This document shows, piece after piece, positions 1 through 43,197 of a stretch of DNA of 64,000 nucleotides. Positions within the stretch are counted from its first letter, which is position 1; every line of letters starts with the position of its first letter. This DNA comes from Anadara kagoshimensis. Its lineage: Eukaryota > Mollusca > Bivalvia > Arcoida > Arcidae. The notes beneath the pieces were generated by a model. It was not told the origin of the DNA. It saw nothing but the letters and a program-made list of their open reading frames with translations, and did not search any database. The DNA lies in assembly GCA_021292105.1 (NCBI GenBank), contig CM037870.1, positions 16,029,234 through 16,093,233 of the forward strand, in the 5' to 3' direction. Both the position numbers and the translations under genes were made by a program.

Positions 1-168
1 AATTTTTTTAAAAACTCGTATAATAGAAATGCAGAAAGAATGAAGAAAGTAAGATTTCTACTTGTTCATCGCTCGGTTTGTATTCGTACACATTCAGTAG
101 CGTCCATTCTGTTTGAGTCCAAATGTCCTTGGAGAGTGCACCTGTCAATTGGAAATGAAGTACTTATG
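1..168 (+). CDS. Gene A exon (ectodomain module 2, first half), 5' truncated by window
   Basis: Open from base 1; the ATG at 40 is internal and not the start, because codons before it align with the B counterpart. Conserved core RSVCIRT, then C-x-W-R-V, ending in LM before donor GTGAGT at 169. Phase 0 end. Confidence 0.8.
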
Positions 169-3100
169 GTGAGTAACATGACTTATCGTTGTGACTTGAA
201 AAAAATCAGAAAGTGTTTGCCATGTTTATCTTAACTTGTCAGTTTCAAAGTTTTTACTTTGCTTCATGTTTGTGATTCAGACATGGAGAAGTATGTTTGT
301 TTTTGAATATGAAAGAAAGAGATTACTTTGAAAAATGATATTCCATCATGCTATTATTATATTCTTTCATTCTCAATTCAGATTTCATATGTGGCGGTTG
401 ACACTGCCTAACAGGAGGTGCTCACTTTCCGGATCATCCATCTCACTTCCTTGGAAAGTTAGCGTATTTAACTCATTTTGCAAGTTTCAAATAAAAAAGA
501 TAAATTATGTGTATTATGATTAAAAAAACACATTGTTTCATGTTTTTGGCACTAGAATATGGGACATTCTTTTTACAACCAGCCAAGGTTATATTGAAGT
601 TGGTGGTTTAGAAAATGGTCAGATCTGCGGGAAAACTGAAAACATTCTCAGTTTGCTCTTCTCGAGTAGGATTATAATTTAGGAGATGAGAGGCATTGTG
701 ATATGTAAAATGACGCTTGAGATTATTCGGCCTTCACTAAGGCTTTGTCGAATATAAGATCTGTAAAACATATTAATGTAACTCTTCATAACGATTATAT
801 AAATGTTCTTTCGATGTTTTTTCAGGTTCTCAAGTGTATGGGAACATATGATTACTGGTGTTTACCAAAAGAATGGATTAAAAAATCTCGTGAATTATTG
901 GAAATTTCTTTCGAATCTGTAGATAATAGAACTTTTTTTACGTCTTATTCAATTAAGATAACAACTAATGAATCTTACTCCTCATATGGTCAGTATAGAT
1001 GCCCGTATGAGACAACCACAGCAACAGTGCCAACAAGTAAGTAATCATATAAGTCAATAGCGATATTTCAATTTGTTGATCTCCTATCCGGATTTTATAA
1101 GAAGTATTCGTAGAGTTATGTATTGGTATTTAACCCCCCCCTCCCGTGAAGATTCTGCTTCTCTAACAGAGGTTGACAGTTTTGGTGTACCCGTAGAAAA
1201 GTACAGACTTCTGATAGCAAACTGAGAAATGTCCCCATACCAAGATCTACTCTACTATAGGATTCAAACCTTGGCGACGAGAAGGGCTGTGATCTGTAAG
1301 TGTGTGCTTTAGACCACTGGAACCTTGGCTATGAGATTTGTAAGGATGAACGTCAGACCACTGGAACCTTGGCGATGAGATCTGTAACGTCGAGCTTCAG
1401 CCTACTAGAACCTTGATGATGAGATCTGTAATAACGAGCTTCAGACCACTCATCCACTGGAACATATTATAAAAGAATTAAGAAATCTAAATAGGCGATG
1501 AAAATGTCTGTGATCTGTAAGGATGTGCTTCAAATCACTGGAAACTGTACGGACGGATTTCAGACCACTGGAACCTTGGCAATGAGATCTGTTACGACGA
1601 GCTTCAGACCACTGGAACCTTGGCGATGAGATCTGTAAGGATGTGCTTCAGACCACTGGAACCTTGGCAATGAGATCTGTAAGGACGAGTTTCAGACCAC
1701 TCGTCCACTGGAACCTGTTATAAAAAATATAGAAGTCTATCTCTAATCATCAGGTACACTTAAACCTCTGACAAGCGTCGCAGAAACCTTCTTATTTAGT
1801 TCAACTTAAAATGTACTTCTCTAGTAACAGCATTGCATACAAAAACTGTAAACATTCTAAGAGCTCATGGCCAAATAAAAAAGAAACAAAATAGAATCTA
1901 ATTGTTTATGGTAACCTTGATAGATGTTGTTTGTATCCATCTCAATCCTGATAATAAGGATAAAATCGGTTAACGAATTATTATTGTCTAGTAAGAAAGG
2001 ATCCCGAGGACTTATAATCAAACAGGAAAATATTTTTGTTAATTAATTGTATTATGTCATTTACAATGTTAAGTTGAATGTTAAATAAAAAAGAATAAAG
2101 TCAACACAAGACTTTGCCACTCGCCTCTGCTCTTGGCTTTGGTCTCTGTCTTTCTCTATGCCTTGTTAAGATCTTTCAGTTATCATTTAACTGTTCTATG
2201 CCAGGTTGTTGTTTTTTTTTTTTTTTGTCTTTTTTCCCGGTGGTGTCTATTTAAGATACCACTTCCTTCATTCTAAAGACATGCCCTTACAACCTTAATC
2301 TTCTCTGTTTTATTTCGTTTTATGGTGTTTGTATATAAATATTTTATTTCAAATCTTATTTGATGGTATTTCGAGATTTGACACATTCTCTCTCTTTTTT
2401 GTCGCTCATTTCATTCTTCAAAATATGTACAAAGTATTTTACTATGTACATGTAATTGCATTTTAAGAATTTTGAGATCTCGGAAATATCTGGCATTTTA
2501 GATTCAGATGGATAAAACAAACACATCAGTCCATGTCTAAAGTATATCCCAAATCAAAGTAAAAACCTTTGAAAACTGGCATACATAGATTAAGTTAAAC
2601 ACGCCAATTTTCACCAGGGAATTGAGACCGGGTGTTCCGGAAGGCAAGCTCCTTCAATTAATCAAAAACACACATGTCAATCGATGTACAAATCTCAATC
2701 CCAAAGTAGAGTTAAAACTTTAAAACTGGCAAATTAAGTTAAGCATGTGAACTGCCACCAGGGAAATGAGGCCGGGTGCTCCGGAAGGATAAGTGTCTCC
2801 TGTTTAGTTTTTTGATACAGAGAAATCATACTTCCTTTCACACAATTTTGATTACACACGTGACAGGTGTAGCTAGCTAAACAGGAGGTGCTTACCCTTC
2901 CGGAGCACCCAGCCTCACTTCCCTGGTGGAAGTTCACGTGTCTAACCTAACTTGTCAGTTCCAAAGATTTTACTTTGCTTCTGGATTGTGATTCGGACAT
3001 GGATTAGTGTGTTTGTTTTTGATTATTAACAATATTGTGACGACAGCCATAAAACTTGAACTATGGTATTAAACTAGCTGAACATTCTGGAGCACCTGGT

Positions 3101-5381
3101 CTCATTTTCCTGGTGGAAATTCATCACTAACTCTGTCAGTTTGTAATAACTTACTTTACTTTGTTTTTTTGGACATGGTTTTTGATTATACTACTACTAA
3201 TAATAATACCAAATGAATATATGTATACAGTATTAGCAACTAACTATTTTTCCCATTTTTCAGCAAGGGCAACACATAACGATCACGAAGACTATTGGAG
3301 TTATAGAAGACCAGGTGTTGTAACTTACCTGGTTCCAATTGTAGCTGTACTTATCATGGTGTTTGTCTGCATCTGTTTCGCGTCATACATTAAATCAAAA
3401 AGAACTTCGAGACAACGCCGTATGCAGCAACACCGTATACAAATGGCCTACACACCCACTGGTTTGTATAATACTTACTAACTTTCTTACTTCCTTCCTT
3501 CCTTACTTACTTACTTACGTACTTAATTGCATACTTACTTACATACTAACTTACTTGCTTACTTACTTAGGCCTTTAATTACCTGTGGCCTTCCATCGTG
3601 GATTTGTTTTGTACGAGTGTTTTTATGTCTGTGTATTATTTTCAGAAATATACTAGTCTAAATTTGCTGCAAGTAACTAAATTTGAAATTCCTCAAAAAC
3701 TAAGGTATACTCCCTCATGCAAAGTATTTCCTTAGCTGAATTTGGTAAAATATATTTTGGTCCTTTGGCTATCTTTTCAACATCTTGAAAAGTTAAACAA
3801 TTTTGGATTCATAATTTTGGTTCAAGCACTACTGATGAGGAATTGTATTCCAAAACGGCCGTCTAGTGCTGTAAAATTAAAACTAATATAATATGTATTC
3901 TGACCAGTTAAATAAGCGTCAAAATATTCAGATTAAAACTGTTACATGGACGAGAACATTATAAAAAATTAATGAATGGTGGATTCATCAAATGGTATTT
4001 TATGTCTCAGCTAAAATAGTTTATTTATATCGAGACGTCGGTAGCTATAGGGGAAGTAGCAGAAATTTTGACCTTTGTAGTGCTCTTGGAGCAATGTTCG
4101 TGGAGTTACCCCATTACTTTCATTTCTAAATGCAAAGTGCTTTGTAAAAGACCAGTAACTGTTTAAGAAATAAGGTAATTTCTCAATGTCTTTATGAACT
4201 TGCAAAGTATAATGAGCTGTCTCAAATTGTATAAAATGCGGAGCAACTTTTTGCAAGTTCATTAAGACATTGGAAAATTACCTTATTTCTTACATTTACA
4301 ATATTTATAAAAATTAAGTTTATTGCCGTCTCATATTTTCCTTGTTAATTTGAAAACAATGTTGAAATGTGTTGTTGCTACACCTTCTCATAAAAATGGG
4401 TCGTCTCCTGTTAGTCAACGAGAGCATTTGACATCTGACGTCATCACGTAAATGCGTGGAGCAATGTCCCAAATGAAGTTGCAAAGTATAGTCGATGTCA
4501 AACAATTTATTGAAGCAAAGATATTGCAATTGTAAATATTTTAAAATATTGGTCAGATCCGGGCTGGAGTTCCCGCCCTGACATCTTGCTTACGAAATAA
4601 GCTCTCGACCAACTGAGCTACTGTAGTTGTATATACTCAAAGAAAGGAAATTAGAATTGTGAATTTTTTACATAATCCCAAAATAATGATATCAAATGTT
4701 ATGAACTCATCTTGAACAAGAACTTTACCCTAAAAAGAACAATAGAATGGTACAGTCAAGCCTGTCTATAAAGGTCATTAAAGGGAACCATTAAGATGGC
4801 ATTTATCGGCATGTGACTCCTGTAAAGAATATGAAAACAACATGGAACTATGCAATGCCAAACATATCCAGGATTAGTTGGGATATGCAGTCAAACCTGT
4901 CTATAAAGGCCACCCAAGGGAATTAGTAAAAGTGGCCTTTATGGGCAGGTGGTCTTTATATACAGGTTCAAATAATATGAATAAAGAACAATTGGGATAT
5001 AATTCTACTGGCCTTTATAAGCAGGTTGCCCTTATATAGAGATGGCCTTTAAGGCAGTTTGGACTGTATGTTTTTTTTTTTACTTTTATCAATCAATAAC
5101 ATATGTTATCAAAACCTTTCTTTTTTCTAGATTCTGGTCAATCAGTGCCAAACCCGGTCTACAGATCGCATGACCCTGTAATGGATCCAGCTGGACATAC
5201 CGAATCAACACCGTCTTATTATGATCCTCCACCCAATTATGCTGGTGTCATGGCGTCAGCACCACCGTCCGAAAACTCAACAACTGCCACGCCCTCTTTA
5301 GCAGATATACCACCACCGCCTTCATATGAAGATGCTTTGGCGATGGCTGAAAACAAAAATACTAGCAGTACAAATATTTAA
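1..5381 (+). CDS. Gene A: 3' part of a PPxY-tailed single-pass membrane protein
   Basis: Spliced gene whose 5' part lies before the window; visible exons are 1-168, 826-1036, 3264-3461 and 5131-5381. All junctions are GT-AG and in phase, giving 275 residues to the TAA stop. Order: second ectodomain module (Cys-bearing, motif WCLPKEWIKK), a Thr-rich stalk (TTTATVP), a hydrophobic helix in exon 3264-3461 followed by a basic stop-transfer stretch (KSKRTSRQRR), then a Pro-rich tail with PPPNY and PPPPSYEDAL. The tail motifs are of the PPxY class known to bind WW domains, so recruitment of NEDD4-type ligases is a reasonable inference, not seen directly. Gene B downstream is a close tandem paralogue: exon 826-1036 and its B counterpart are both 211 nt and match at 56 of 70 residues. 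I do not recognise the ectodomain family. Confidence 0.8.
190..500 (+). repeat. Dispersed repeat family 1 (GGAGCACCC repeat), two forward pieces
   Basis: Family 1 is the commonest dispersed repeat of the window. Its forward consensus runs from about CTTGATAAGCCTAGG through TTGATAAG, GTAGCTAGCTAAACAGGAGG, TTCCGGAGCACCC and CTTCCCTGGTGGAAGTT to GACATGGATTAGTATGTTTG, roughly 330-380 bp when full. No coding capacity or clear target-site duplication was seen. Here a 3' piece (190-308) and a second copy (336-500) follow the gene A exon; gene B has a copy at the same place after its matching exon. Confidence 0.7.
826..1036 (+). CDS. Gene A exon (ectodomain module 2, second half, plus Thr-rich stalk)
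   Basis: Acceptor TTTTTTCAG ends at 825; donor GTAAGT starts at 1037. Encodes VLKCM, then WCLPKEWIKK, N-glycosylation sequons NRT and NES, YRCPY and the Thr-rich stalk. Same length as the gene B exon at 16169-16379. Starts phase 0, ends phase 1. Confidence 0.9.
1260..1738 (+). repeat. 44-bp minisatellite, about ten imperfect units
   Basis: Unit around CCACTGGAACCTTGGCGATG followed by AGATCTGTAAGGACGAGCTTC, interrupted near 1450-1545. Lies in the gene A intron between 1036 and 3264. Confidence 0.85.
2514..3170. repeat. Cluster of family 1 copies, reverse-reverse-forward-forward
   Basis: Reverse copies at 2514-2660 and 2664-2815 meet forward copies at 2816-3030 and 3045-3170. The 2664-3030 pair forms a near-continuous inverted repeat just upstream of the gene A transmembrane exon. 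Confidence 0.7.
3264..3461 (+). CDS. Gene A transmembrane exon
   Basis: Acceptor CCATTTTTCAG ends at 3263; donor GTTTGT at 3462. Encodes an acidic and aromatic lead-in (HEDYWSY), about 23 hydrophobic residues (core VPIVAVLIMVFVCICF) and a Lys/Arg/Gln-rich cytoplasmic start. The donor context CCACTGGTTTGTATAATAC recurs at the paralogous exon ends in B and C. Confidence 0.85.
3475..3568 (+). repeat. (CTTA)n simple repeat
   Basis: Imperfect CTTA/CTTC tetranucleotide run starting right after the gene A transmembrane exon donor. Confidence 0.85.
4012..4632 (-). mobile_element. SINE-1 copy, reverse, split by a foldback insertion
   Basis: Tail half (rc ends with TATATCGAGACGTCG) at 4012-4157 and tRNA-like head at 4547-4632 (on minus: AGTAGCTCAGTTGGTCGAGAG). 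In between sits a hairpin sequence (4158-4292, arms around AAATAAGGTAATTTCTCAATG and its complement) plus about 250 bp of unexplained AT-rich DNA. Confidence 0.65.
4752..5066 (+). mobile_element. MITE-C: partial copy followed by a full copy
   Basis: MITE-C begins CAGTCAAACCTGTCTATAAA and ends with the inverse, CAGGTTGGACTG, flanked by TA, with repeated GGCCTTTATA inside. Full copy 4888-5066; a diverged partial copy precedes it at 4752-4887. CAGT ends and TA flanks suggest a pogo/Tigger-like (Tc1/mariner) origin. It sits just upstream of the gene A last exon. Confidence 0.7.
5131..5381 (+). CDS. Gene A terminal exon, cytoplasmic PPxY tail
   Basis: Acceptor TTTTTTCTAG ends at 5130; stop TAA at 5379-5381. 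Contains NPVYRSHDPV (shared with B and C as NPAYRRH), DPPPNYAGVMASAPP and PPPPSYEDAL. The two PPxY motifs are about 40 residues apart, compatible with binding by a multi-WW protein. Confidence 0.9.
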
Positions 5382-5571
5382 AACAAATATGGAGGGAGAG
5401 TTTTCATTCGACAAAGTGGTATAAGGATATTGAACTGTCTCGATGAGGATCGTATCATAGGTACTCGTGGAATGGATTTTAAGCATTTTATGAAAAGCAT
5501 ATATTCGATACGATATATTTGTACTAAAATGCTTAAAATCCAAGACCCGAGCAACTATGGATCGTGTTGGT

Positions 5572-5577
5572 AATAAA
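5572..5577 (+). terminator. Possible gene A polyadenylation signal AATAAA
   Basis: AATAAA about 190 bases after the gene A stop codon. The region is AT-rich, so chance occurrence is possible, and the A/B shared 3' motif lies further downstream. Confidence 0.3.
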
Positions 5578-5594
5578 GAAATTACAATACGTAT

Positions 5595-5640
5595 ACAGTC
5601 AACCCTGTCGATAAAGGTCACCCAAAGGCAGGTTGGACTG
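5595..5640 (+). mobile_element. Minimal 46-bp MITE-C derivative
   Basis: Both termini (CAGTCAACCCTGTCGATAAA and GGCAGGTTGGACTG) are kept with almost nothing between, flanked by TA. A deletion product of MITE-C inside the gene A 3' region. Confidence 0.7.
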
Positions 5641-5683
5641 TACAATCAAATTGAGTAATAATATGTAGTTTTAAAAATAGAGA

Positions 5684-5923: not shown

Positions 5924-5927
<4 letters not shown>

Positions 5928-5967
<40 letters not shown>

Positions 5968-6793: not shown

Positions 6794-6835
<42 letters not shown>

Positions 6836-9611: not shown

Positions 9612-9849
9612 TTCTGACATGCCTATTTCATTTTTTGATATTACAGGTTAATAATATTTTCAAGCAGGACTTTTGGTATGCCAGATGGAATACACGACGT
9701 AAATGATCAGCGCAGCGTACACCGTCCTTCTATGTTTTTTATTGAACGATATCATTTATATAATTGCCTCGGGTAGGTAAAACAAACATTGCAGTCCCCT
9801 GCGAGACAAATCCCCATCCCGAACATTGCCGCGTTGTTATTTTTAAGTT

Positions 9850-10742: not shown

Positions 10743-11002
10743 ATATAGAGAACCATGTTTGTTTCCCGGCAGTTAACAGAACGCAACATTATTACATCAC
10801 AGACATATCAATATCCCTTGACACGGAGACGGTTAAAGAAATCCTAAAACAAAACACATCAACATGTACATTTGAGTTTGAACTTAAAAGTCATGGGGCA
10901 ATTAATATAGAGTTAATCAATGGGGATATATATAGATACAAGATATGTAGGACTTTTTCCTCCATTATATTCAAAATTGACAAAGAAGGAATTCCTGTTA
11001 CG
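10743..11002 (+). CDS. Gene B ectodomain module 1, first exon
   Basis: Acceptor CTTTTATTTTCAG ends at 10742; donor GTAATT at 11003. Begins mid-codon (phase 1) and ends phase 0, exactly like 40645-40901 in gene C. Conserved with C: HVCFPAV against NPCKPAV, and CRTFSSIIFK against CRAFSSIYFK. The polypyrimidine tract reads as a short in-frame hydrophobic run from an ATG at 10718, but it is too short for a normal signal peptide. Confidence 0.8.
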
Positions 11003-11710: not shown

Positions 11711-14700
11711 AGAAGAAAGAAATAAAGAAATTATTTGATATATTCTGCATTTTCAAGTAATATACAGTCAGTGGCACTATGGCTACATCAGTTTACTTGA
11801 CCTTTTTTCTGTGGGGAGCAAATGGGGTTCGCCGCTGTACAACGTCATGTCCCCTTACGATTTGGCCAACACTTATTTCAAATGAATCGGAATCGCAAAA
11901 GATTTCGCTTTCCCGTAAAAAGGTGTTATTCAGGGAAATTTTTACGTTAACGGTTTCCAAAACGTTCCGCACACGCGTTAAAAAGTATTTATCACGTGAT
12001 ACAGTAGCAAACCATATCATAAATGGGCTCTTGTTACCTATTGATCATGTGCTCCATCAAATCCACTGAAATGGATATTTTATGAATGCAAATTACGTTA
12101 CAATGCATGTGATATGATGGCTACCAAACGAAATCACGGAATCATTAAATAGCAATGACGTCACCGGGAGTAAATTTAAACAACAGAACAGCCGTGGATT
12201 ATCGTTTGATATTACACAATTTTCTCCTTCTTTCATATAAAAAAATACGAGTAACGATGTAATATAATGTTAAACAAAACAAACATTCAAATCAATGTCC
12301 AAATCACAATCCCAAAGGCAAAGTAAAAACTTTTACACTAACCCGTGAAATCCACCAGGTGAGCGAGACCGGATGCTTCTAAAGGTGAAGCATTTCGTTT
12401 TTAGCTAGCTACACCCGCGACGTGTATAATCAAAATTGATTGTGTGAAAGAAACATGGAAATATGGAACGCGAAATATATTCAGGGTAATCCTGGACACA
12501 GAGAAATCATACTTATCAACAATACTGTGGTGGAGACCATAAAACGTAGTGAGGGTCTTGATAGGCCTAGCTAGTTGAATGATATAATAATTGATATTAA
12601 ATGGGATTTTTTTATGGAAAACGTCAATGTAAGCGATTTCATATGTAATAACAAAAATAGTTCCGCATAACTTATTTATAGATATTCTGATTAATCCCAT
12701 AAGGTGTAACTAGCTAGACAGGAGGTACTTTCCCTTCCGGAGCACCCAGCCTCACTTCCCTAGTGGTGGAAGTTCAAGTGCTTCATTTAATTTGCCAGTT
12801 TTCAAAGTTTTTACTTTGCTTTTGAGATTGTGATTTTGACCTGGACTAATATGTTTATTTTTATATAATATCGATTGATTCTTTTTCAGAAACTAAATTG
12901 TTGGGATACTGGAAAATGGTTTGTGCCATGGCCATGGAAAAAAGTCGTGGTGGAAATAAATCTGTCAGTTAAGAACACTTCATTGCATCCACTCAATGAG
13001 TCTACTGCACATGTGATGACATCTGCCTCCACTATTCCAAAATTAATGTCTAGAAGACACATACCATACAAAGGCTTAAGTAAGTACAAATTCATATCAA
13101 AGTGTCAAAAATAAACATGCTGATCCATGTCTGAACCACAACCCAGAAGCACAGTAAAAAACTTTAAAACTGACAAGTTAGGTTAAACACATGAACTTCC
13201 ACTAGGTAAGGCTACCAGGGAAGTAGGGCCGGGTGCTCTGGAAGGGTAAGCACTTCCTGTTTTGCTAACTACACCCGCTACGTGTGTAATCAAAATTGAG
13301 TGAAAGGAACATAGACCTACCGGTATAGGACATCAAACATATCCAGGACAATCCTGGACACAAAGATTTAATACCATGTTTCCGAAAATCAGATTCGGTG
13401 AATAAGTATTTCTCGTCAGCAGTTATTTTGTGTATCCAAAATTAACTTGGATGTATTTGTCTTCCTATAGCTCCATGTTTGTTTCATTCTGCAATTTTAT
13501 TTCACTTGTCAGGTATTGCTATTGCTAGAGTGTGCCTACTCTTCCGGAGCAGCGGTCTCATCTTGCTAGTGAAGTTTACATGTTAAACCAAATTTGCCAC
13601 TTTTCAATGTTTTTACTTTGGATTTTAACATGGACCAATATGTTTTTTTGATTATATCAATATATATTTTATCATATGTTCAAGTACATTTATATTACTT
13701 GCACATATGTTCTAGATTCTCCTAATTTGATATTGTTACCATTGGCTTCAAGATCAAAACAAATATTTTTGTTTTATTTATAATTTAACATTTTTACTTT
13801 TCTTTTTTTAAAGTAAGATTCATACATGTGCCATTTTTGTCACTAGATTAAACCATAGAAAATCTTGGTTAGGGGTCATATATTAGCCCAATCTTTATTC
13901 TTGTTAAGACCTATTTTTTTGACAATTTCCCGAATGGATTTGAGACATGGATTTGTATTTTTTAATAATTTATCGATTAGATTGAGTGTAAGGCATATTA
14001 TTCCCAGGTCAGCCCCTAGGGTCTTCATGGTTGTCTTAGCGTAAGCATGCTGATTTTTAAGAAAAAAAACAATCTTAATACCAAAATCACCGTGATTATG
14101 ATTTTATGTCTGTAAAACAAACGGTTACAAAAGAACGTGTAGTACAACGCTTTTATTTTGTATTTGCATTAAATGTTTTTTTCTAATTTTAATCAAGACC
14201 TTTTAACATTTTTGTCGTCATCACAATTGATAAGTATGTTTCTGTATCCAAAATTGCCCTGGATATACTTGAGGTCCGATAGTTTCCTATTCCTTTCATG
14301 CTGAATTTTTATTTCATACATAACTAGCTTAACAGGTGCTTACTTTTCCGGATCCGGACTCACTTTCCTGGTGGAAGTTTACATGTTTAACAGTTTAAAA
14401 GTTTTTACTTTGTTTTAGTATTGGACATTGGCCGACATATGTTTGTCTTAATAATATATTCAGAACTCTCAATATTTTTGTTTTTCTTATTTCGTTTTGG
14501 TGGTTTTATTTTTTATCCCACGTCTTTCGATGAAAGAGTGGATTGTTAAATTAGAAGTTCCGTCAGCCCATACAATTCCTTTCTCGAGTAAAAACATGAA
14601 GCACTTTTTTACGAAACTTGTTGTAAACCATCAACATTGGTAGGAGATGCGTATTTCATTAACCCGAGTTAGTTTGCTCATTTTCCTTTGAGTCATGACC

Positions 14701-25740: not shown

Positions 25741-25741
25741 A

Positions 25742-32070: not shown

Positions 32071-32635
32071 GAATTCCTTATAATATCGAGAACATCAATG
32101 CAACTTTTAAAGGCATTAAATATTGATCTATTTTAACTAAAGCAGATCTTTAAAGCTTATTTGTTTTGATGCAGCACTACTTCACTTTACCTGAAAAAAA
32201 ACCTTACTGATTGCACTGCAACCTATTCCATAACTTCGCTAAATGTTTCGGAAGGATTTGATCTTCAAGGAGAGAATTCCTTATATCAAGATCATCAATG
32301 CATCATTGAATATTGATCTAATTTAATTAAAGCAGATCCATGAGATCCTTAAAGCTTATTTGTGTAGCGCCACTTCACTTTAGCTGTAAAAACCTTACTG
32401 ATTGCACTGCAACCTGTCCATAACTTCGCTAAATGTCAGAAGGATTTGATCTGTAAGGAGTGAATTCCTGATATCAAGACCATCAATGCGACTTTAAAAG
32501 GCACTATTGAAAATTGATCTAATTTAACTGAAACCAATCCTTATTTGCGATGATGCAGCACTACTTCACTAAACCTGGGAAAACCTAACTGGTTTTCCTA
32601 CAATCTGTTTTATTACTTCCCTAAATGTTTGAACT
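32071..32635 (+). repeat. Tandem repeat (three ~190-200-bp units) spanning gene C stop codon
   Basis: Units start at GAATTCCTTATATC-like sequence at 32071, 32274 and 32462 and end CTTCGCTAAATGTTTCGG. In the third unit the CTAAATGTTTG segment is the TAG stop and last codons of gene C read on the other strand, so the array was made from gene C 3' sequence. Confidence 0.8.
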
Positions 32636-32892
32636 ATTTTTACCACCAGACATAGTTAAAGCTTCTTCATATGAAGGAGGTGGCGCTATGGGCATACTGG
32701 CTGTCGGTGAGGTAATGGTTGTAGTTAGTTGTTCCCTATAATCTGGAGGTGCTGAAGCCATAACACCGGCATAGTTTGGTGGAGGATCACTGTAGTAAGT
32801 GTCTGTTCTATTTGTTCCATTAAGTGTTAAATCTGGACCTCGTACCGGGTCATGTCTTCGATAGGCTGGATTCCGTGGCGCCTCGTCATCAT
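32621..32892 (-). CDS. Gene C terminal exon, tail with three PPxY motifs
   Basis: Acceptor TTTACTTTAG; stop TAG at 32623-32621. Contains NPAYRRHDPV, DPPPNYAGVMASAPPDY and APPPSYEEAL. The last codons and stop lie inside the last unit of a tandem repeat that continues downstream (32067-32635). Confidence 0.85.
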
Positions 32893-35800
32893 CTAAAGTA
32901 AACAGATATCATGCTTATACATTTCAGTTACTAGTATATGCTTGCAAATAAATTGTTGACTCGGGGATAATGCAAGCCTAGGCTTATCAAGGCCCTCAAA
33001 AAGTTTTATGACCGTCATCACATAATTGTTGATAAGTTTGATGTCTCTGTGTCCAGGATTGTCCTGGATATATTTGACATCTCATAGTTCCATGTTTCTT
33101 TCACACAATTTTGATTACACACGTGGCGGGTGTAGCTAGCTAAACAGGAAATGCTTATCTTTCCCGTGCACCCGGCCTTACTTCCCTGGTGTTCACGTGT
33201 CTAACCCGACTTGTCAGTTCCAAAGTTTTTACTTTGCTTCTTGATTATGATTCGGACATGGATTAGTATGTTTGTTTTTTATTATTCCGGATAATTGCAT
33301 AAAATTTCCTGACAAACATGTTATGCAATTTAGCGGAAATTGACTGAACCATAATGATGTCACTTAAAGTTTGACATTCCAAAGTTTTATGTTCCTTTCA
33401 TTCTCAATTTCGATTTTACATACGGAGGTTGTAGCTAGCTAAACAAGAAGTGCGTACCCTTCCGGAACACCCGACCTCACTTCCCTGGTGGAAGTACACA
33501 TGTTTAACTTTGTTGCCCGTTTTAAGTTATTACTTTTGTTTTTGTGATTTGGACCAAAACCATAGTCACTTGACTTAGTGGAAAAGTCTCTAAAACTTAA
33601 AAGGAAAATCAAATTTTATTGTTCTTTGAGTTACGTATTTTAATAAAGCATATCTGATGTACATGTGTTATTTACTCATCTGTTTTATTTTTGCAGCACT
33701 AGACTACTGTTTCGGAATAAAATTCCTACTATGTAGTGCTAAGACCAAAATTGTTGAAATTCAATAAGTTTGATGTCTCAGGATTGCCCTGGATATATTT
33801 GACGTCTCATAGTTCTATGTTCCTTTCACACAATATTGATTACTCACGTGGCGAGTGTAGCTAGCTAAACAGGGGGTGCTTACCCTTCCGGAGCACCCGG
33901 CCTCACTTCCCTGGTGGAAGTGCACGTGTCTAACCTAACTTGTCAGTTCCAAATCTGGATTGTGATTCGGACATGGATTAGTATGTTTGTTTTTGATTAA
34001 GATGTTGAAATAAGAAAAAGGGGTCAAAATGTGTTTTATCAAATCCACCTAAAGATATACTTGAACAATTATGCATATCTAAATTTTTCTCAGGAATTTA
34101 ATTTTAAGAAGCAGACAAGTTTGATGGAAAACGTTAATCTATACAAACCGGCATCTCTGTAGGTTATATGTGAACGTTGGCTCATTCTACTTTCATAATT
34201 TGAATGGCGCCTATGCGATCTTATATATGAGGCTCCACAAATAAATGCAAAAATAAACACCAGTAAACCGATGATGGGGATGTAAATGGCGGAAGATGAA
34301 CTGTGTCTTCTTGAATTGTAATCCCCTCCCGAATCAAAACTGTGGTACTTACTGTAATAATAAAGAGTGTATTAATACAATTTTTGGATTTGACTACAAA
34401 AATGGTATCATAAGCCTTTTTGCTTTAAGTGCTCCGACCATGTCAGTTAACATTTTTCATTATGCAATTACAGTCAAACCTGTCCATAAAGCCACCCAAG
34501 GGAATCAGTAAAAGTGGCCTTTATAAACAGGTTCAAATAATATGAAAAAGAATGATTGGGATATATTTCTACTGGCCTTTATAAGCAGGTGGCTCTTATA
34601 TAGAGGTGGCCTTTTAGGCAGGTTGGACTGTAGTTCTAAAATTCTGACAGCGTAAAATTTAGGAAGAATTTTCAGACTATAATTCACATTGATTCTATTA
34701 AAATACTAGTAGCGAATTGCATCAGATAGACTGTTTAAGCATTGAAACAAACAAACGAAGCAAAAGCAACCACTTGTAATTTTGACGTTCTTATTTCTAT
34801 AGTTTCTTTCAATTTTCATCTCGTAATAAAACTTCTGAAGCTTGTAATTCTTTGAAGATATCAAAATAACACGTGTGAGCATAATATACTGCTAAATAAA
34901 GAAGCTAAAATTGAAGATTACATGCAGCGTGCATGTATTGGGAACTGCAAACAGGTGTAGCGGGTATTGAGTATAGATGGACAAGTTATACATGTCTACG
35001 GGGAAATGACGTATCGCTGACCACGCCCACAATGTTCCGACAAATGTCTGGCTTGCTTAAATTACATAAACTCGACCTGAATTGCGCCATTTAATGACGT
35101 CACTGACACTAGTACGTCATTTTTTGCCGTTTTTGGTACCGTGATGACGGCCTTTGTCGGAACATTGTGGGCGTGGCCGGCGATCCGTCAAATTTTCAAC
35201 TGGGACGGTTTAGACTTCTTATTCTAGGAGAAAAAAACAAGAGAGCCTTAGACGGTCATCTTCAAAAGGGAATAATAAACTAGATGTACCTGTAGTAGTA
35301 GTGGTGGTAGTTGTGGTAATTGGACATGAGAAGCTTCTATAGGCACTCTTTGTCTCGTTGCTGCTTAATGTTATTGTGTATTTGCTATAGCGTTGATATG
35401 ACGAAAAGTATATTTCAAGCCATTCTCCTGATTTTTTAATCCATGATTCTGGCAGACACCAGTATTTAGTAATGTGGTTACAGTCCAAAACCTACAACAA
35501 TTCCAATACTGTCATACTTCGTCGTCCATCCATATATATATATATATATATACAGTCTAACCTGTCTATAAGGGCCACTCGGGGGAAGTTGCAAAAGTGG
35601 CCCTTATGGACAGGTGGCCTCTATATAGAGGTTTGTAAATCCAATTGTGACATAAATATAAATATTAGTTGAAAAAATAGTGAGCAGTTCTAATTTATTT
35701 ATTTCATTTGTTAAAATCTCTGTTACAAAAAAGACATTAGCTAATTTTAATAGAATAATTTTTTTGAAAACAATTAAAGAAAAATCTTCTGACCACACTA

Positions 35801-38800
35801 TTTATCAATCTTTGAAAAAAAAACCCCTTAAAAATCACCAAGTATATACACATATCTTAAATAAAGACATGTTTTCTTTAAAAAGATAGGAGCCAGTAAT
35901 AAAACAATAGAAAATAGTATCTGTATCATAATTAATAATGAGTAATAATCTATCCTTAGTGCTTTATGGCTTCATTTGTTGACATAAGGATAAATGACAT
36001 AAGAATGTTTTTAAGTTTTAAAATAGTTTCAAAAATATTCATTTTAAAAATTCTTTTCTTATCAACATACAGATTTGGTTACATGTACTTAGTTTAATGA
36101 TCAATGGATTAAAGTTAAATAATCAATGTTTAAAATCTAATTTTAGCTTCAAGATTTTTAAAAAACTACATGGCTTAATATTTTTGCAAAAATTTTAGAA
36201 ACTATAACAAAACTTGTCCCCAAAATACGAAAAAAGTGGCCTTTATAGACAGGTTCATGAGCCATTTTGTACAAAAATAGGGTGGCCTCTGGCTCAGTTG
36301 AACAGTGGCCCTTATATAGAGGTTAAATAAAGAGTAAAATGGCTCGGGAGGAATTGAAAGTGCCCTTTATAGACAGGTGGCCCTTATATAGAGGTGGCCT
36401 TTAACACAGGTTGGACTGTATATATATAATAATAATAATAATGACAGTTTGCTAGTACGTTCATGACTATGACTATGATAGCAATCTTCAGGCGAATATG
36501 ATGTTTCATCACTTGATGAAAGAAGAAATTCTATGATGTTTTGGAACATTTGCTTTGTTCTAAATCTCTGAAAATATTTTGCCAAAGGACAGCAGTTTTT
36601 GTGTGTGAAATATAAAAGGGGGTACTTTGTGTCTTCGCGTGGAAGCACGTGGCCTAGTGGTTAAGGCGTTGGACTCATGATTCGAAGGTCGTGGGTTCGA
36701 TCCCTGGACCGGGTGATGTGTTGTGTCCTTGAGCAAGACACTTAATTTCGCGTTGTTCCAGTTCACTCAGCTGAAAAATAAATGAGTACCAGCAAAAACG
36801 CTGGGGGTTAACCCTGCGATGGACCAGCGTCCCATTCAGGGGAGAGTCTTGTACTCTCAGTCGCTTAACGCCACCGAAACCGGGATAAGCTCCGGCCTGA
36901 TGGGCCTAATGGCTCGGGACAGACTTTAACTTTAACTTTGTGTCTTTTGCCATTTAATTGCCTCAAATTTACATAGGTTTCATGTAGTGGTGTGCAACCT
37001 TTAAGTAACTATTAAGCAAATCATTCACAAAAATGACAAAATTTGTTAGACCTGAAAAAACCCTTACCATGCTTTAAACTATATTTATTTTTTAAGGACG
37101 TAGAAATTTTTCAGTTTGAAGTGAAATTGAAAATTTTTAGAGTGTGCAGACTTTTTGAGCAAAGACTGGCATTTTACATTAAGTCACTTCCTACTGAAAT
37201 ATTGTCGCTAGAAACAATATGGTTTTGCGCTATGTATGAGTGTGTGAATGGCGTACTAATAATTTTTGTAAAATGTGTTAAAAAATGGAAAAAATGGTTT
37301 TGCACCTATACTCACCATAAGGAGTTCACCTCCTATTTTTATATCTATTTTCCATGGACAACTAAAAATTGTCTCATATAAACCCCCAGCGTATGTTTTT
37401 ATACAAACAGATTTATCAACAAGAAGAAAATGTATTTTTCTTTTCATGTTTCCACCTAAATAACTTCTTTTAAATGTTATCTTATAATAAAAATCTCCTA
37501 GGCATAACTCGTGTAACTGTGGAACTCTTGGCAGTATTCTATCAACAGTCATTTCAACTACAAAACACAATAATATGGTATTACTGGCAAATTTTCTAAA
37601 TAAATAAGTTTTCATTCTTGGCCACTCGTATGTTTGAGGTCGTGAGTTCCATTCCTTGGACGGGTCTGATCAACACTTGAAAATATATAGTGACTGTTCT
37701 TTCGCCGAGCACTCAACATCTAGAAATGAAAGCCATGGGGTCCTTTGATTGAGACCTTAAAACAGATGCTTCTGTACGGCATGCAAAGGTAAAAATTTCT
37801 GACACTTAACCTTCATCCAGTAACGTCTCGGTCTAAGTGATGTATTCTTAACTGGGGCTTAAAACCCCATTCAATCGACCATTCCTCGAAACGGATATCG
37901 ATGCTAATTTCTCAATAATTTGTAATAAATATTAATGATCAAAGCGGTCCGGTTTTTATGACCCACCTTGTACATGGTAAATCGCTAAATTCTTCGAGAT
38001 GCTCTATTTTCGTGTCAATTCGCAAGAATAACAACTTGTGCAAATAAAACCTTTTGCAAATATCCAATTATAATTTTGTACAACGAAGCAGGCTGCTTGC
38101 AAATAAATTGTTAACTCAGGGATATCACAAGCCTAGGCTTATCAAGGCCCCCAAAAAGTGTTATGGCCGTAATCAGAGTATTGTTGATAAGTTTGATGTC
38201 TCTGTATCCAGAATTGCCCTGAATATATTTTACGTCCCATAGTTCCATGTTTCTTTCACACAATTTTGATTTCACACGTGGCGGGTGTAGCTAGTTAAAC
38301 AGGGGGTGCTTTCCCTTTCGGAGCACCCGGCCTCGCTTCCCTGGTGAGAGTTCAAGTGTCTACCGTGACTTGTAGATTACGATTCGGACATGGATTAATA
38401 TGATTGTTTTTGATTAAGTACTTAACAATAAAAATCATCGAATAACTTGAAATGTCGTTACTCGTGAGACGAAAATTTTCTGTTTAAATTATAATCCATT
38501 ACCCTGTTGTTTATATTTTTGTAGCCAATGGATCCAGACATGTATATCATTTTAAGAGTCAAAATTGCTTTAGTAGATGCATTCAAGATCAAGTGATTTT
38601 CTGTAGAATTGACTACCAAATTAATTCCCACAACAACTCTTTTCTTTGGCCATGGTACCGTCCAATTTCCTGACTCATCACAACTAAGTGTCTACAAAAG
38701 AAAAAAAAAACATTCATATATAAAAAAAAAACATACTACATGTAATTCATATCCTAATCAAAGTCCCTAAGCAAAGTAAACACTTTGAAGGAAGTTAGGT

Positions 38801-41800
38801 TAAACAAGTGATCTTCCACCAAGAAAGTGAGGCCGGATGCTCCGGAAGGGTAATCACCTGTTTAACTAGCTACATCTGTCATGTGTGTAATAAAAAATGG
38901 TGAAATAAAAAATAACATGGAAACAATGAGACATCAAATTTATCCTGGGTAATTTCGGTTAAGAGACAAACGTACTTGTCAACAATAATGTGACGATGGC
39001 CACTAAACATTTTGAGGGCCATGATAAGCCTAGGCCTGCAATATCCTTGCGTCAACAATTTATTTGTAAGCAGCTTGCTTCGTTGTATAAAGTTCCCGTA
39101 GTTGGAACAAGTTCTACCACTGCGTATTACTTATAAAACAAATGCAGCATAAGCAACAGAAGCAAGTACATTGCTGCATAGAAAAGGAGTTGAGTAATGG
39201 TTTTTAACGTCCAAGTCAAGAATATTTTACTTATATCGAGACGTCGCCAGCTAGTAGTGACTGTTCTTTCGCCAAGCACTCGGCATTACGAAATAAAAGT
39301 CACAGTTCTTTCGGATGGGAACTTAAAATAAACGAGGTCCCGTGTCACGGTGGGCTTGTCACGCTAAAGAACCATGTTGTATAATGCCATCAGCGCAACG
39401 CACGGGCAAATTTCTGCATTTTTGCTTATAGCTGGCGACGTCTCGATATAAGTGAAATATTATTGACTGGGACGTTAAACACCATTACCCAACTCAACTC
39501 ATCTAGTAATTACTGAATTTTGAAAGAAAAACGCAAATTAGAGTCACTTAAAGGCATTACTTTATTTGGTTCCGTAAAGATCATGAGGGTAAAAGTAAAT
39601 TTATTTCGTATTTTCCAAATAGTATTTCGTAGTTTCACAATAATTATTTCGAATCTTCAATTAGTATTTCGTATGATCGAAATAGTTTTTCCTATATCCA
39701 AAATAGTATTTCGTATATTCGCAATAGTTATATTGTATTTTCAAGATAGGTATTTCGAATTTTAGAAATAATATCATGTATATAGTATAGTAAAGTTGTA
39801 TAGTATTTTCGCAATAGTATTTCGTATATCCAAAATAGTATTTCGCATATCAAATAGTTTTTCGTAAAAAGTTGTATAGTATTTTCGCAATAGTATTTCG
39901 TATATCCAAAATAGTATTTCGCATATTCAAAATAGTTTTTCGTATATCCTTAAACATATTTTGTATACATGTATTTGCAATAGTTATTTCGATTTATATA
40001 TAGACACAGAGTTTCGTATAATCACAATAGTTGTATGGTATTTTTGAATAAGTACATGTATATCCAAAATAGTATTTCGTATATTAAAAATAGTTATTTC
40101 GAATTTCCGAAAAGGTATTCTGTATATTCATAATGGTTGTATAGTATTTTCAAAATAGTATTTTGTATATTCACAATATTTTGAATTTCGATTTAGTTTT
40201 TCTTATATCCAAAGTAGTTATCCAAAGTAGCCACCCATTAAACGGTCTGCCACAAGTGTAATAACGTTTGGTTAAATGTTGCTTAACGTCGCATCAGCAA
40301 TTTTTCAGCTATTCGCGACGAGAACTGTTTTATTAATCTCTATGGATTAATCTATGAACAATTTCGTGTACGCATGTGAAGTGCGAGTGTGTTGTATGAT
40401 GTGCTTTGTACTAACGCGCACTCAAGGCGACATTAACGTGCTAGCTCACAGAATCAGTATACCGCAGACAAGCCTACCACTCCCCCAGTCCATTATACTG
40501 ATACCAGGTGAACCAGTAAAGGCCAGCGGCTAGGAAAATTCACTTTCCCACATATGGTCTGAGCAGGACTCGAGCTCACAGCGGTGAGAGTTGTAGACTG
40601 ACCTCTTATCCGTTAAGCCAATAAAGATTTACTTAATACATTACCTTGACGGGTTTTCCCACTTTGCCAACTTTGAAATAAATGCTGGAAAATGCTCTAC
40701 ATTTTTCAGATTTAGAAATATTATTCGTTTCAAAAGCTATCTGTAGACCGCCAGCTGCCCAACCATACATATCAAGGTCATATATACAACTGTTTCCAAC
40801 AATGTCCTTGAAATCCCTTCCATTTTGTGAAATCCGAAGTATCTTTTTGGAATAACCTGACTCTATTGTTACAGCCGGCTTGCAGGGGTTTTTAATTAAA
40901 CCTGAAATATGAACAAACAAACTCAGTGATTAGAATGCGGTCTATATAAACTACAGTACTGTCGAAAGTTTAACGCTCAGCTAAAGAATAAGTACCGATT
41001 CGGCAGTTCATTTTGTCCCCCCCCCCCGTTATCTATATCTTGGTAGCTGCTATACAGTAAAGACCTGTCGAAAGTTTAACACTGAGCTAGAGTATTAGTG
41101 CCAAATAAGCCAGTCATCATCTGGACTGCTCGTTAGCTAGATCTCGACAGCCTTTTCGCCCCCCCCCCCGGCCGGGTCTGACCCAAGACTTATAAGTGGG
41201 TAGTGACTGTTCTTTCGCCAAGCACTCGGCATTACGAAATGACGGTCACGGTTCTTTCGGATGGGAACTTAAAATAAACGAGGTCCCGTGTCTTGGTAGG
41301 CTTGGCACGATAAAGAACCCTGCTGTATAATGCCATAAGCGCAACGCACAGGCAAAATTTCTGCACCTTCGCCTATAGCTGGCGACGTCTCGATATAAGT
41401 GAAATATTCTTGACTGTGACGTTAAACACCATTACTCAACTCAACTCGTTTTTCGGTCACAAGCTAATCGATATCTTGGCCACTCGACAGCCATTTTGTA
41501 CGTTCTGTGTTAAACTTTAGACAGGTCTGTATTGTATATCTTCCGGTAGGTTTTCGATTATCTCAATCACTCAACAGCCGGGCTTCGACTCTTTCTCGTT
41601 AGATCAGCGTTAAACTTTCGACGAGTCTGTACTGTAGGTTCAGTATAGTCCTGTCGACAGATATGGACAGCTACAAGACACACCTGTCGACAGATATGGA
41701 CAGCTACAGTGCAGACCTGTCGACAAATATGGACAGCTACAGTACAGACCTGTCGAAAGTTTAACAATGAGCTAACGATAAGGAGTCCAAGTTCAGTAGC

Positions 41801-43197
41801 CGAGTGACATAGATATGATAGACAGTGGCAGGAAAGCTGTAAATATCGGCACTGATTTGTAGGTGTTAAACTTTCGACAGGTCTGTACTGTGTATACCAA
41901 AAAGTTACCGAGAGGTAGATATCAGCTGCCAAAAAGCTACTGAGAGATAGCTAACGAGGAGCCAATATGAACTGTCGAAATTTGTTAGCTTAGTGTTAAA
42001 CGTTTGAAAGGTCAGTACTGTACTTTCGGAAAAAATCATAGCATTATTACTGCAACTTTCAACTTTATAAAATTACTGTAGAAGCCACTCTGTTTGTGAC
42101 AGTAAAATGTTCTTTATTTCCATAGAAAATCAAATAAATTTGAATAAAGATTGATATTTTTCATTTACTTGTATCAAGTCGTAACAGAAAACTTCTGTAT
42201 GCGCATCCGTGAATAGCGTAGAATATTTCTGCACACAGCAAAACGTTGGCGCTATGGGGATTTAACATGTTGAAAATGGCGGACCCTGTTGTGCATATGA
42301 CGTAAAATGTCAACAAGTACATCACTTCCGGTGTAAATATCGTTATTTTCACCATGTAAAATCCCCGTAGTGCCAACATTTTCCTTTCTACAGAAATACG
42401 TTCTGACAATCGCGGATGCGCATACAGATTTTCTGTTACGACTAGGTACAAGTCGGTGAATAATATCAATTTTTATTTAGATTTATTTGATTTTCTATGG
42501 AAAAGAGCGTAACTTCACTGTCACAAACAGACTGGCTCTGAGAGTAATCATGACTGTTTTCCAAATTTACGGGCAGGTAAAATTTAAACCTGATCAAATG
42601 TTCTGTTAAAAGACATATTGGATGCATAATGGGGTTATCCAGCAACAAGGAAAATAATTTTTGCACTAATGCATTACCGGAGGGCCGGGGTTAGGATGTC
42701 TGGCTCTCTTGGAAGGGATAGTTCTTATATTATAATCATGATTATATTATAATGATAAATCATAAACAAAAATACCAGTCCATGCACATATCACAATCCC
42801 AAAAAGCAAAGTAAAAACTTTGAATCCTGGCAAAAATTAAAACACCTGAACTTCTCCCAGTGAATGAATCTGGTTGATCCGGAAGAGTAAGCACCTCCTG
42901 TCAAGCTAGCTATACCAGCGACGGGTAAAGATAAAATTGAATCGAAAGAAGGAAAGGGTGGAATTATTGGAGTCACTCTTCAACTGAAAAGCTTCAAAGG
43001 TACTCCAATAGTAGGAAGAATATAAAAGAAGACGCAGATTTACAATCATATGCTTTAATAAATAAATTCTGAATTAAAAAAAAAATTAAGATATATAAAA
43101 AATAATAATTACCGGCTCCATTAGTATAAAGAATCAAATCTAACATAAAACAAAGAAAGGATATTTGTTTTATGTTCAGGTCCACTCTGTCTTTCAT
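32621..43197 (-). CDS. Gene C: PPxY-tailed membrane protein, full exon set, two out-of-phase junctions
   Basis: Seven exons on the minus strand: 43197-43113, 40901-40645, 38691-38503, 37557-37316, 35491-35290, 34351-34149 and 32892-32621. Together about 1,450 coding bases, or roughly 483 residues if the frame is kept. It supplies the signal peptide missing from B. The rest follows the family plan: two ectodomain modules, a poly-Thr stalk, a transmembrane helix, and a tail with PPPNY, APPDY and PPPSYEEAL (three PPxY motifs). Every exon is open and well conserved. However, exon 38691-38503 is one base short of the phase needed by the next exon, and exon 34351-34149 starts one base short. Either this is a young pseudogene, or the sequence has single-base deletions, or unusual splice sites are used. 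Gene B converges on it from the other side. Confidence 0.75.
32965..34000 (+). repeat. Three forward family 1 copies in the last gene C intron
   Basis: Copies at 32965-33290, 33365-33560 and 33765-34000. The third (AGGGGGTGCTTACCCTTCCG) and first are the best preserved. Confidence 0.75.
34149..34351 (-). CDS. Gene C transmembrane exon, one base short at its 5' end
   Basis: Acceptor TATTATTACAG then T AAG TAC; the paralogues have two bases before the first codon, here only one. The frame with the helix (IYIPIIGLLVFIFAFICGAS, then RSHRRH) continues to donor GTTTGT in the conserved context. Confidence 0.65.
34471..34630. mobile_element. MITE-C, full copy
   Basis: CAGTCAAACCTGTCCATAAA to CAGGTTGGACTG, flanked by TA. 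In the gene C intron before the transmembrane exon. Confidence 0.8.
35006..35193. mobile_element. Foldback MITE, about 188 bp
   Basis: Arms ACCACGCCCACAATGTTCCG-ACAAA and the inverse (TTTGTCGGAACATTGTGGGC) around a ~100-bp loop holding a TGACGTCA site. About 90 bp from a gene C exon. Confidence 0.75.
35290..35491 (-). CDS. Gene C ectodomain module 2, second exon with poly-Thr stalk
   Basis: Acceptor AATTGTTGTAG; donor GTACAT. Encodes VLDCNHITKYWCLPESWIKK and YRSFSCPI followed by an uninterrupted Thr tract from an ACC/ACT microsatellite. Such stalks are commonly O-glycosylated (family-general inference). Confidence 0.85.
35553..36418. mobile_element. Long MITE-C relative, 866 bp
   Basis: Ends CAGTCTAACCTGTCTATAAG and CACAGGTTGGACTG, flanked by TA. 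It is five times longer than the usual copy, with AT-rich interior and extra GTGGCCCTTATATAGAGG units near the right end. No transposase ORF seen. Confidence 0.7.
36647..36944 (+). mobile_element. SINE-2 copy, tRNA-derived
   Basis: Head GTGGCCTAGTGGTTAAGGCG then GGTCGTGGGTTCGATCCC (intact A and B boxes), body with TCCTTGAGCAAGACAC and GGGGAGAGTCTTGTACTC, tail of ACTTTA repeats. Different family from SINE-1. Confidence 0.85.
37316..37557 (-). CDS. Gene C ectodomain module 2, first exon
   Basis: Acceptor GTGTTTTGTAG; donor GTGAGT. Encodes LHELCLGDFYYKITF, then SVCIKTY, FSCPWKIDIKIGGELLM. Clear counterpart of 1-168 and 14827-15071. Confidence 0.85.
37616..37885 (+). mobile_element. SINE-1 copy, forward, head lacking
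   Basis: GGTCGTGAGTTCCATTCC, TAGTGACTGTTCTTTCGCC and tail TAACGTCTCGGTCTAAGTG. Ends 60 bp above the start of a gene C exon on the other strand. Confidence 0.7.
38085..38415 (+). repeat. Family 1 forward copy beside gene C exon 38503-38691
   Basis: Near full length, from GCTTGCAAATAAATTGTT to GACATGGATTAATATGATTG; lies downstream of the exon in gene C orientation. Confidence 0.8.
38503..38691 (-). CDS. Gene C ectodomain module 1, second exon, one base short
   Basis: Acceptor CTTTTGTAG; the only nearby in-frame donor is AGG/GTAATG. Encodes LSCDESGNWTVPWPKKRVVV and sequons NST and NAST. Length is 189 nt against 190 in gene B, so it ends in phase 0 while the next exon expects phase 1. Bracketed by inverted dispersed repeats at 38715-39095 and 38085-38415. 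Confidence 0.7.
38715..39095 (-). repeat. Family 1 reverse copy on the other side of the same exon
   Basis: From ACATACTACATGTAATTC to GCAGCTTGCTTCGTTGTAT. With 38085-38415 it forms an inverted pair around the exon, matching the gene B arrangement. Confidence 0.8.
39190..39502. mobile_element. SINE-1 inverted fusion
   Basis: A reverse SINE-1 tail (39190-39254, GAGTTGAGTAATGG start) abuts a forward SINE-1 body and tail (39255-39502), giving complementary ends of about 60 bp. Confidence 0.75.
39560..40230 (+). repeat. Degenerate ~21-bp tandem array
   Basis: Unit around ATAGTATTTCGTATATCCAA with many variants and a 50-bp higher-order duplicate near 39790-39950. Followed at 40276-40315 by a single unit of the 36-bp array of 8325-9115. 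Confidence 0.8.
40540..40620 (-). mobile_element. tRNA-like SINE head, other family
   Basis: On minus: TGGCTTAACGGATAAGAGG then GAGCTCGAGTCCTGC, an A and B box pair. The B-box spacing fits a tRNA but no intact acceptor stem is evident, so a SINE head is more likely. It lies right next to a gene C exon donor. Confidence 0.5.
40645..40901 (-). CDS. Gene C ectodomain module 1, first exon
   Basis: Acceptor CATATTTCAG just above 40901; donor GTAATG below 40645. Contains NPCKPAV, GNSCIYDLD and KCRAFSSIYFKVGK. Same phases as the B exon 10743-11002. Confidence 0.8.
40955..41640. mobile_element. MITE-B copies with a SINE-1 insertion
   Basis: MITE-B starts CAGTACAGACCTGTCGAAAG and ends with the inverse, flanked by TA. 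A partial copy at 40955-41050; a full copy 41055-41534 interrupted by a headless SINE-1 (41165-41449) next to a C run; a 3' half at 41541-41634. Confidence 0.75.
41641..41739 (+). repeat. 33-bp minisatellite grown from a MITE-B 5' end
   Basis: Three exact-length units at 41641, 41674 and 41707, each CAGT-x-CAG-x-CCTGTCGACAGATATGGACAGCTA-like. The next 33-bp step (41740) is the real 5' terminus of a MITE-B copy. Confidence 0.85.
41740..42021. mobile_element. MITE-B full copy and a partial copy
   Basis: Full copy 41740-41890 with both termini; a second 3' half 41891-42021 ends GTTTGAAAGGTCAGTACTG. Confidence 0.75.
42070..42535. mobile_element. Foldback element, about 465 bp
   Basis: Arms: CTGTTTGTGACAGT at 42090 against ACTGTCACAAACAG near 42528, TTTCCATAGAAAATCAAATA against its inverse, and further paired segments (CTTCTGTATGCGCATCCG). 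ORFs here read through the arms and are not genes. Confidence 0.75.
42755..42990 (-). repeat. Family 1 reverse copy in first gene C intron
   Basis: AATACCAGTCCATGCACATA through GTAAGCACCTCCTGTCAAGC; ends about 120 bp from the signal-peptide exon. Confidence 0.7.
43113..43197 (-). CDS. Gene C signal-peptide exon
   Basis: ATG at 43197-43195, donor GTAATT after 43113. Encodes MKDRVDLN, then a hydrophobic run (core ISFLCFMLDLILY) and TNGA, typical of a cleaved signal peptide. It ends phase 1 with G, joining in frame to the GT TTA ATT start of exon 40901-40645. Confidence 0.65.

Follow-up and report, generated by a model that had tools for sequence, protein, structure and literature searches.

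What kind of protein is encoded by three related genes that lie close together in the bivalve Anadara kagoshimensis, each predicted to combine a large ectodomain with a PPxY-bearing cytosolic tail, and to what would such a protein be coupled? The genes, here called A, B and C, lie in a stretch of 64,000 nucleotides (C14:16029234-16093233; the window), and we searched for their relatives in the 1.115 Gb genome assembly (36 contigs). We find that they belong to a family that is real, constrained and expanded, and that its constant element is one C-terminal motif, PPxYxxALxM, and not the whole tail. Whether its members are type I single-pass receptors or adaptors, which would bring whatever the ectodomain or transmembrane (TM) segment binds to a NEDD4-family ligase, is in our judgement an evenly balanced question, and this is the reading that we prefer.

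Gene models and a second copy of the cluster

Gene models were rebuilt from open frames and splice signals. Genes A (+), B (+) and C (-) each comprise a signal-peptide exon, four ectodomain exons (e1 to e4), a stalk and TM exon, and a PPxY tail exon that ends in a stop codon, and the intron phases 1-0-1-0-1-1 are common to all three, which bears out the three paralogues and the exon plan of the preliminary description. Gene A, also listed there, is a real gene but is incomplete in the window, which opens inside its e3; everything before that point (the signal-peptide exon, e1, e2 and the first 77 bases of e3) is found upstream, at C14:16024270-16029233. The modelled exons, in window positions, are as follows.

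1..168, +, 3' part of gene A exon e3, the initial 77 bases being upstream of the window
826..1038, +, gene A e4, the exon with YWCLP
3266..3463, +, gene A exon for stalk and TM segment
5130..5381, +, gene A tail exon with NPVY, PPPNY, PPPPSYEDAL and stop
9703..9772, +, gene B signal-peptide exon (MISAAYTVLLCFLLNDIIYIIAS) with phase-1 donor, resembling that of A
10745..11002, +, gene B e1, first half of ectodomain 1
12890..13078, +, gene B e2, second half of ectodomain 1
14826..15071, +, gene B e3, first half of ectodomain 2
16169..16381, +, gene B e4, second half of ectodomain 2
16960..17139, +, gene B exon for stalk and TM segment
19212..19541, +, gene B tail exon with NPAY, two PPSY and stop; holds a 57-bp tandem repeat
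43114..43197, -, gene C exon for the signal peptide, with its start codon at 43197
40645..40902, -, gene C exon e1
38503..38691, -, gene C exon e2; e2/e3 junction out of phase in the window copy
37316..37558, -, gene C exon e3
35291..35491, -, gene C e4, including a T-rich stalk
34147..34353, -, gene C exon for stalk and TM segment; acceptor phase mismatches the e4 donor in the window copy
32621..32893, -, gene C tail exon with NPAY, PPPNY, APPDY, PPPSYEEAL and stop

A, B and C are repeated in the same order and on the same strands about 1.38 Mb away, at C14:14.64-14.69 Mb (region C14:14635001-14703546), and this second copy is 94.1% identical to the window over 46,103 aligned bases (colinear matches of at least 300 bases, some overlapping, introns included). 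The signal exons of A (MNDITYICLLCFLLNSIVHIFAS) and B are alike and both recur in the second copies, that of B with one residue different. Several CUB matches elsewhere are paired on one contig as well (on C3, C17, C18 and C19, 0.4-2 Mb apart and with similar scores, as if haplotypes had been retained in the assembly), so that a fair guess is that the second cluster copy is a retained haplotype, a true segmental duplication being possible. All exons modelled for A and B have open frames in both copies. Gene C is out of phase at e2/e3 and at e4/TM in the window copy but in phase at both in the second copy, which has breaks of its own, one in the signal peptide and one where e4 begins; these single-base length differences, at different places in the two copies, look more like consensus errors than decay. 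The window interval 53,700-54,100 also recurs at the same offset (C14:14703132), 93% identical. An exon matching SH3BGR (PF04908, E 3.2e-13) lies at about 53800-54033 (+), and a third copy of window 53700-54100, 91% identical, is found at C18:15398778.

At least eight family genes in the genome

At least eight distinct family genes are present: A-C on C14 and, from a genome search with B, D (+) and E (-) at C1 6.669-6.713 Mb and F, G and H (all +) at C1 33.077-33.111 Mb. Family size from these searches is a lower bound; those made with E and G returned the same clusters and one weak place, C14:7441782-7442066. This place (minus strand; E 2.9e-4, 34% identity to e3-e4 of G, internal stops) is a possible, perhaps broken, extra member and is kept outside the eight. 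A weak C4 place (E 0.58 in the genome search) gave no family exon better than chance, the E-values there being 1.6 or higher.

The exons of D-H are open frames with splice sites at most ends. Across the eight genes, 44 of 48 acceptors and 38 of 40 donors had a listed splice site of the expected phase (expected donor phases 0 after e1, 1 after e2, 0 after e3, 1 after e4 and 1 after TM), sites of other phases also being present near some exons; signal-peptide donors were excluded from the count because their search required that phase. The misses were the C e2 donor and C TM acceptor (other phase), the D e2 donor, and the acceptors of C e4, G e1 and H e3, for which none was listed under the filter. 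Signal-peptide exons are present in A, B and C, and candidates were chosen for D (of two listed) and E (of six listed); the search for such exons in F-H gave none that was convincing. In the gene tree F-H form one group (100/100) and the A-B pair is firm, with C, D and E unplaced and D and E on long branches.

A single motif kept in every cytosolic tail

PPxYxxALxM stands near the C-terminus of all eight tails and is the sole motif kept in all of them: PPSYEDALAM (A), PPSYEEALDM (B), PPSYEEALTM (C), PPSYEDALDM (D), PPSYDEALDM (E), PPPYSAALDM (F), PPSYNAALDM (G) and PPPYQAALDM (H). The PPxY motif had been put forward as the constant element, and this agrees with what we find. The earlier PY motifs vary, with PPNY in A and C, PPDY also in C, PPDY and PPNY in D, PPDY in E, PPSY in B and none in F-H; of the earlier claim that PPPNY is kept in the tails, the part concerning A and C stands, but both PY motifs of B are PPSY. 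A-E thus carry two or three PPxY motifs, 11-41 residues apart, and F-H one. PPxY is in excess over residue-shuffled tails in seven of the eight at the 5% level (C, 0 of 5000 shuffles; A, B, D and E, 0.0004-0.0088; G and H, 0.030 and 0.037). NPxY occurs in four of the eight, A-D only, the matching place being NSAY in E and IRAY in F-H, and the B tail is lengthened by a 57-bp tandem repeat (2.5 copies, window 19292-19431) that repeats VNPA.FEPGESTQ stretches. Lysines are scarce, with 4 among 910 tail-exon residues against 157 among 2446 ectodomain residues, as one would predict for a tail that serves as an adaptor and is not itself the chief substrate.

The closest known motif is that of Commissureless (Comm). 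According to the part of the report available to us, Comm binds Nedd4 through L/PPxY and lowers surface Robo, its motif GLPSYDEAL is called critical, and the corresponding motif of PRRG4 is GLPSYEQAV (PMC5578492). PSYDEAL of E is identical to that part of the Comm motif.

The tail may alternatively be a WW platform for signalling or scaffold proteins of the YAP, WWOX or MAGI type, the whole protein being an adhesion or signalling receptor. Several WW classes read PPxY, and the PY spacing in A-E would be usable by tandem WW domains. However, the invariant xxALxM that follows the tyrosine in all eight tails is like the motif of Comm, which binds Nedd4, and the low lysine content suits a ligase adaptor. 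We consider a platform of this kind unlikely, if well worth keeping in view.

Constraint on ectodomain and tail

Constraint was assessed from Nei-Gojobori estimates of dN/dS, made per exon or region and read at the level of whole regions, not single sites. Between A and B the ratio is below 1 in seven of seven exons, which marks them as coding sequence and not chance open reading frames. The A-B ectodomain has a ratio of 0.39 (dS 0.56, dN 0.22) and the tail one of 0.25 (dS 1.4, dN 0.36); both are constrained, and the tail values imply faster absolute change in the tail than in the ectodomain. B compared with its second copy gives 0.16 for the ectodomain and 0.39 for the tail. A and its second copy are identical in the signal peptide, e1 and e2, and their ectodomain ratio is 0.31 (only five silent and six replacing changes), with e3 alone at 0.66. 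The A-C and B-C comparisons are near or beyond saturation in most exons, and C against its second copy was excluded because of the frame breaks, one of which is spanned by an e2 ratio of 2.84. The A-B comparison and those of A and B with their second copies give no sign of positive or diversifying selection at the exon or whole-ectodomain level.

These estimates bear on the earlier proposal of a self/non-self, gamete or immune surface family, in which a constant output would be joined to a diversifying face. Clusters at three places, divergent paralogues and a conserved PY motif are what such a family would show, but the ectodomain ratio lies between 0.16 and 0.39 in the three unsaturated comparisons, of the 28 columns that are invariant across the eight aligned proteins 21 fall in e1-e4, and A and B differ from their second copies, if these are alleles, by few residues. 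Nor is it general that the tails are kept while the ectodomains diverge: among the 13 pairs compared, of 28 possible, aligned tail identity exceeds ectodomain identity in only seven (AC, AD, CE, CD, DE, AF and GH) and is lower in AB, BC, AE, FG, FH and AH. A fast-changing extracellular face of the immune or self/non-self kind is thus not supported, and we regard a diversifying surface family as decidedly improbable.

An ectodomain without a sequence match among known families

In the eight proteins the ectodomain (e1-e4 and their part of the stalk) spans 271-335 residues and has 9-12 cysteines, none of them adjacent. A, B and C have ten cysteines at corresponding places, and E also has ten but with one shifted; there are 12 in each of F-H. 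D, with nine, is without the third of e1 and without the first of e2, a joint absence that suggests a disulphide between the two. The best-kept stretch, located in e4, is [YF]WCLPxxW, in which WCLP and the second W are invariant in all eight. Each protein has one TM peak (mean hydropathy 2.10-2.96 over 21 residues against 0.77-1.55 elsewhere, signal peptides excluded), the stalk is Thr-rich in several members, and the pre-membrane tryptophan stretches found among the stalks of D, F, G and H (WSSW, WTSW, WQPWSSW, WSDWPSWSSW) are possible C-mannosylation sites.

The ectodomain probably consists of two successive cysteine-bonded, beta-rich domains of about 150 residues each (D1, e1+e2; D2, e3+e4). 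AlphaFold models of single exons (e3 of B and C; e4 of A, B and C) are mostly beta-stranded, at low confidence (mean pLDDT 37.9 and 57.5). Exons e2 and e4 align in register from residue 2 of both over 45 columns (hhalign E 0.0019 at 14% probability, a result equalled by 1 of 100 shuffles), the E-value for D1 against D2 is 0.069, or 0.019 with other trimming (1 of 100 shuffles as high), and profile comparison of e1 with e3 gave no similarity. The in-register likeness of e2 and e4 would make (e1 e2) and (e3 e4) copies of one two-exon phase 1-0-1 unit, an internal duplication for which these alignments are suggestive only.

A search for a strong match of the ectodomain to a well-described family found none in Pfam, NCBIfam or the PDB profiles. 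In Pfam, neither the scan of A-F as whole proteins nor those of single domains gave a match above the cut-off where a cut-off was shown; the best match over all eight members was TMEM154 (E 0.0028, in three members), which scored 15.4 against a cut-off of 30.3 on the TM region of A. The best PDB profile match (E 0.23) was a TM-helix match only. NCBIfam gave four matches, one member each (best E 0.0019, GltJ included), which we take as chance since this collection serves bacterial and archaeal annotation. With no Pfam, PDB or CUB match holding up, the family is indeed an unrecognised one, as had been claimed, and its ectodomain may be a family missing from Pfam. Among the literature titles listed, none concerns a mollusc family of PPxY membrane proteins; one is on 22 HECT ligase genes of a mussel (PMC11353290).

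The family could instead be a very divergent cytokine-receptor-like one, with two beta-sandwich domains of two exons each and a JAK-binding tail swapped for a ligase-binding one. It shares with class II (and class I) cytokine receptors the order of parts and four of six intron phases, most IFN-upsilon-R1 genes of class II having 1-2-1-0-1-0 in the available part of their description (PMC8863823). The low-confidence beta-stranded exon models would fit, as would the pre-membrane WSSWS in G and H, WSSW in D and WTSW in F. However, class I receptors have WSXWS at the close of the second FN3, and here WSSWS occurs in only two of the eight, between the last ectodomain cysteine and the membrane and past the T-rich stalk; no WSxWS-like stretch is present in A, B, C or E; WxxW may be a C-mannosylation site, and phase-1 ends are common among shuffled extracellular exons. 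No FN3 or cytokine-receptor match was found in Pfam or any other sequence match to class I or II receptors. The class I cysteine signature of the first FN3, CX9-10CXWX26-32CX10-15C as quoted in a partially available source, occurs in none of the eight, and the same source puts the whole two-fold cytokine-receptor domain at about 200 residues (PMC1963337), against about 150 for each domain here. We therefore think a cytokine-receptor-like origin very unlikely, and there is only a slender chance that we are dealing with an invertebrate receptor lineage on a cytokine-receptor-like exon plan whose output is a HECT ligase recruited directly via the Comm-type PY motif, not a JAK kinase.

Divergent tandem CUB domains, suggested by a short C-x-W-x-[IV] stretch in e3 (local C.W.I....G likeness; D2 against the CUB profile matched by 1 of 100 column shuffles and D1 by 9 of 100, over 15 columns only), are highly improbable, as this reading fails the Pfam scans, the genome-wide PF00431 search (no family gene among 150 scored of 366 candidates) and the hhalign profile comparison (probability 1.2% for D2 and 0.4% for D1 against 99.8% for a positive control, two halves of the CUB set). 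Decayed genes or an assembly artefact, to which the frame breaks at different places in gene C and its second copy might point, are hardly credible given the open exons of A, B and their second copies, the open frames with splice sites at most ends in D-H, the A-B dN/dS below 1 and the complementary C breaks, which look more like consensus errors.

Other features of the window and genome

The CUB search also drew attention to C11:11.47-11.91 Mb, a dense CUB exon array with one half on the minus and the other on the plus strand and mirrored scores, as if an array of CUB genes had undergone a large inverted duplication. In the window, 58003-58472 is a piece of an abundant repeat with at least 39 other copies, 95-98% identical, on 15 contigs, and a query of 58000-61000 gave 12,382 first-look candidates in the genome. 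A 64-bp tandem array (19 copies, 90% matches) lies at 48911-50111.

A possible role as adaptors of NEDD4-family ligases

All eight proteins combine a single TM segment with a cytosolic PPxY, the arrangement of PPxY/LPxY-bearing TM adaptors of NEDD4-family ligases, and Comm, CYYR1 and WBP1L, which bind these ligases, are the basis of our adaptor model. Commissureless and PRRG1-4 are likewise single-TM proteins with a cytosolic PY, GLPSYDEAL and GLPSYEQAV being close to the family PPxYxxALxM. In the sources as far as available, however, Comm is short and has no extracellular cysteines, whereas the family ectodomain is two-part with 9-12, and PRRG proteins have a Gla domain, which is not among the ten families matched by any of the eight members at E up to 1. 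The STMC6/Shisa-like proteins (WBP1, WBP1L, VOPP1, CYYR1, TMEM92) are also single-TM with PPxY inside; WBP1L (PMC6991692) and CYYR1 (PMC11399591) are described, in the parts of these reports at hand, as TM proteins with PPxY that bind NEDD4-family ligases. Most Shisa-like proteins are given, again in partial sources, six cysteines in the order C*C*CC*CC, unlike the family, which has none adjacent and no Pfam match. Its members would therefore work like the Comm, PRRG and STMC6 adaptors, yet are not members of these groups by sequence. To our knowledge, the membrane adaptors of NEDD4-family ligases have ectodomains that are short or unrelated.

From these parallels we infer WW binding, the identity of the ligase and the trafficking outcome for the tails of A-H. 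The products would be type I single-pass membrane glycoproteins with a disordered-looking, lysine-poor tail. The ectodomain or TM segment would bind a ligand or a partner membrane protein, and the tail PPxY would hold the WW domains of a NEDD4-family HECT ligase, with a firmer grip in proteins that have two or three PY motifs. This ligase would then ubiquitinate the bound partner, or membrane-proximal lysines, and the ubiquitinated complex would pass to the endosome and lysosome; in A-D, the tail NPxY may add uptake through clathrin or PTB adaptors.

Several points weigh against this adaptor model. PPxY is also bound by WW domains of non-ligase proteins. F-H have a single PY motif, and F is within chance by count alone (0.072). 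The lysine depletion (P 4e-21) is not a fair test, since the eight tails are related and Pro/Ser/Thr-rich disordered tails are commonly lysine-poor. The tail of A differs from its second copy by no silent and three replacing changes, too few to judge, and with exon models of low confidence the fold of the ectodomain is not established. Finally, in the available part of the Comm report, Nedd4 binding is implicated only in Robo endocytosis and not in sorting during secretion (PMC5578492), so that a Comm-like protein may act partly without the ligase.

Through membrane adaptors of NEDD4-family ligases a cell in part selects the proteins that stay on its surface. If the adaptor model is true, an expanded family that pairs a large, two-part and unclassified ectodomain with an invariant ligase-type motif would represent a new way to pick targets from outside the cell, and would connect the sensing of ligands with ubiquitin-driven turnover in this animal in a way that can be tested.

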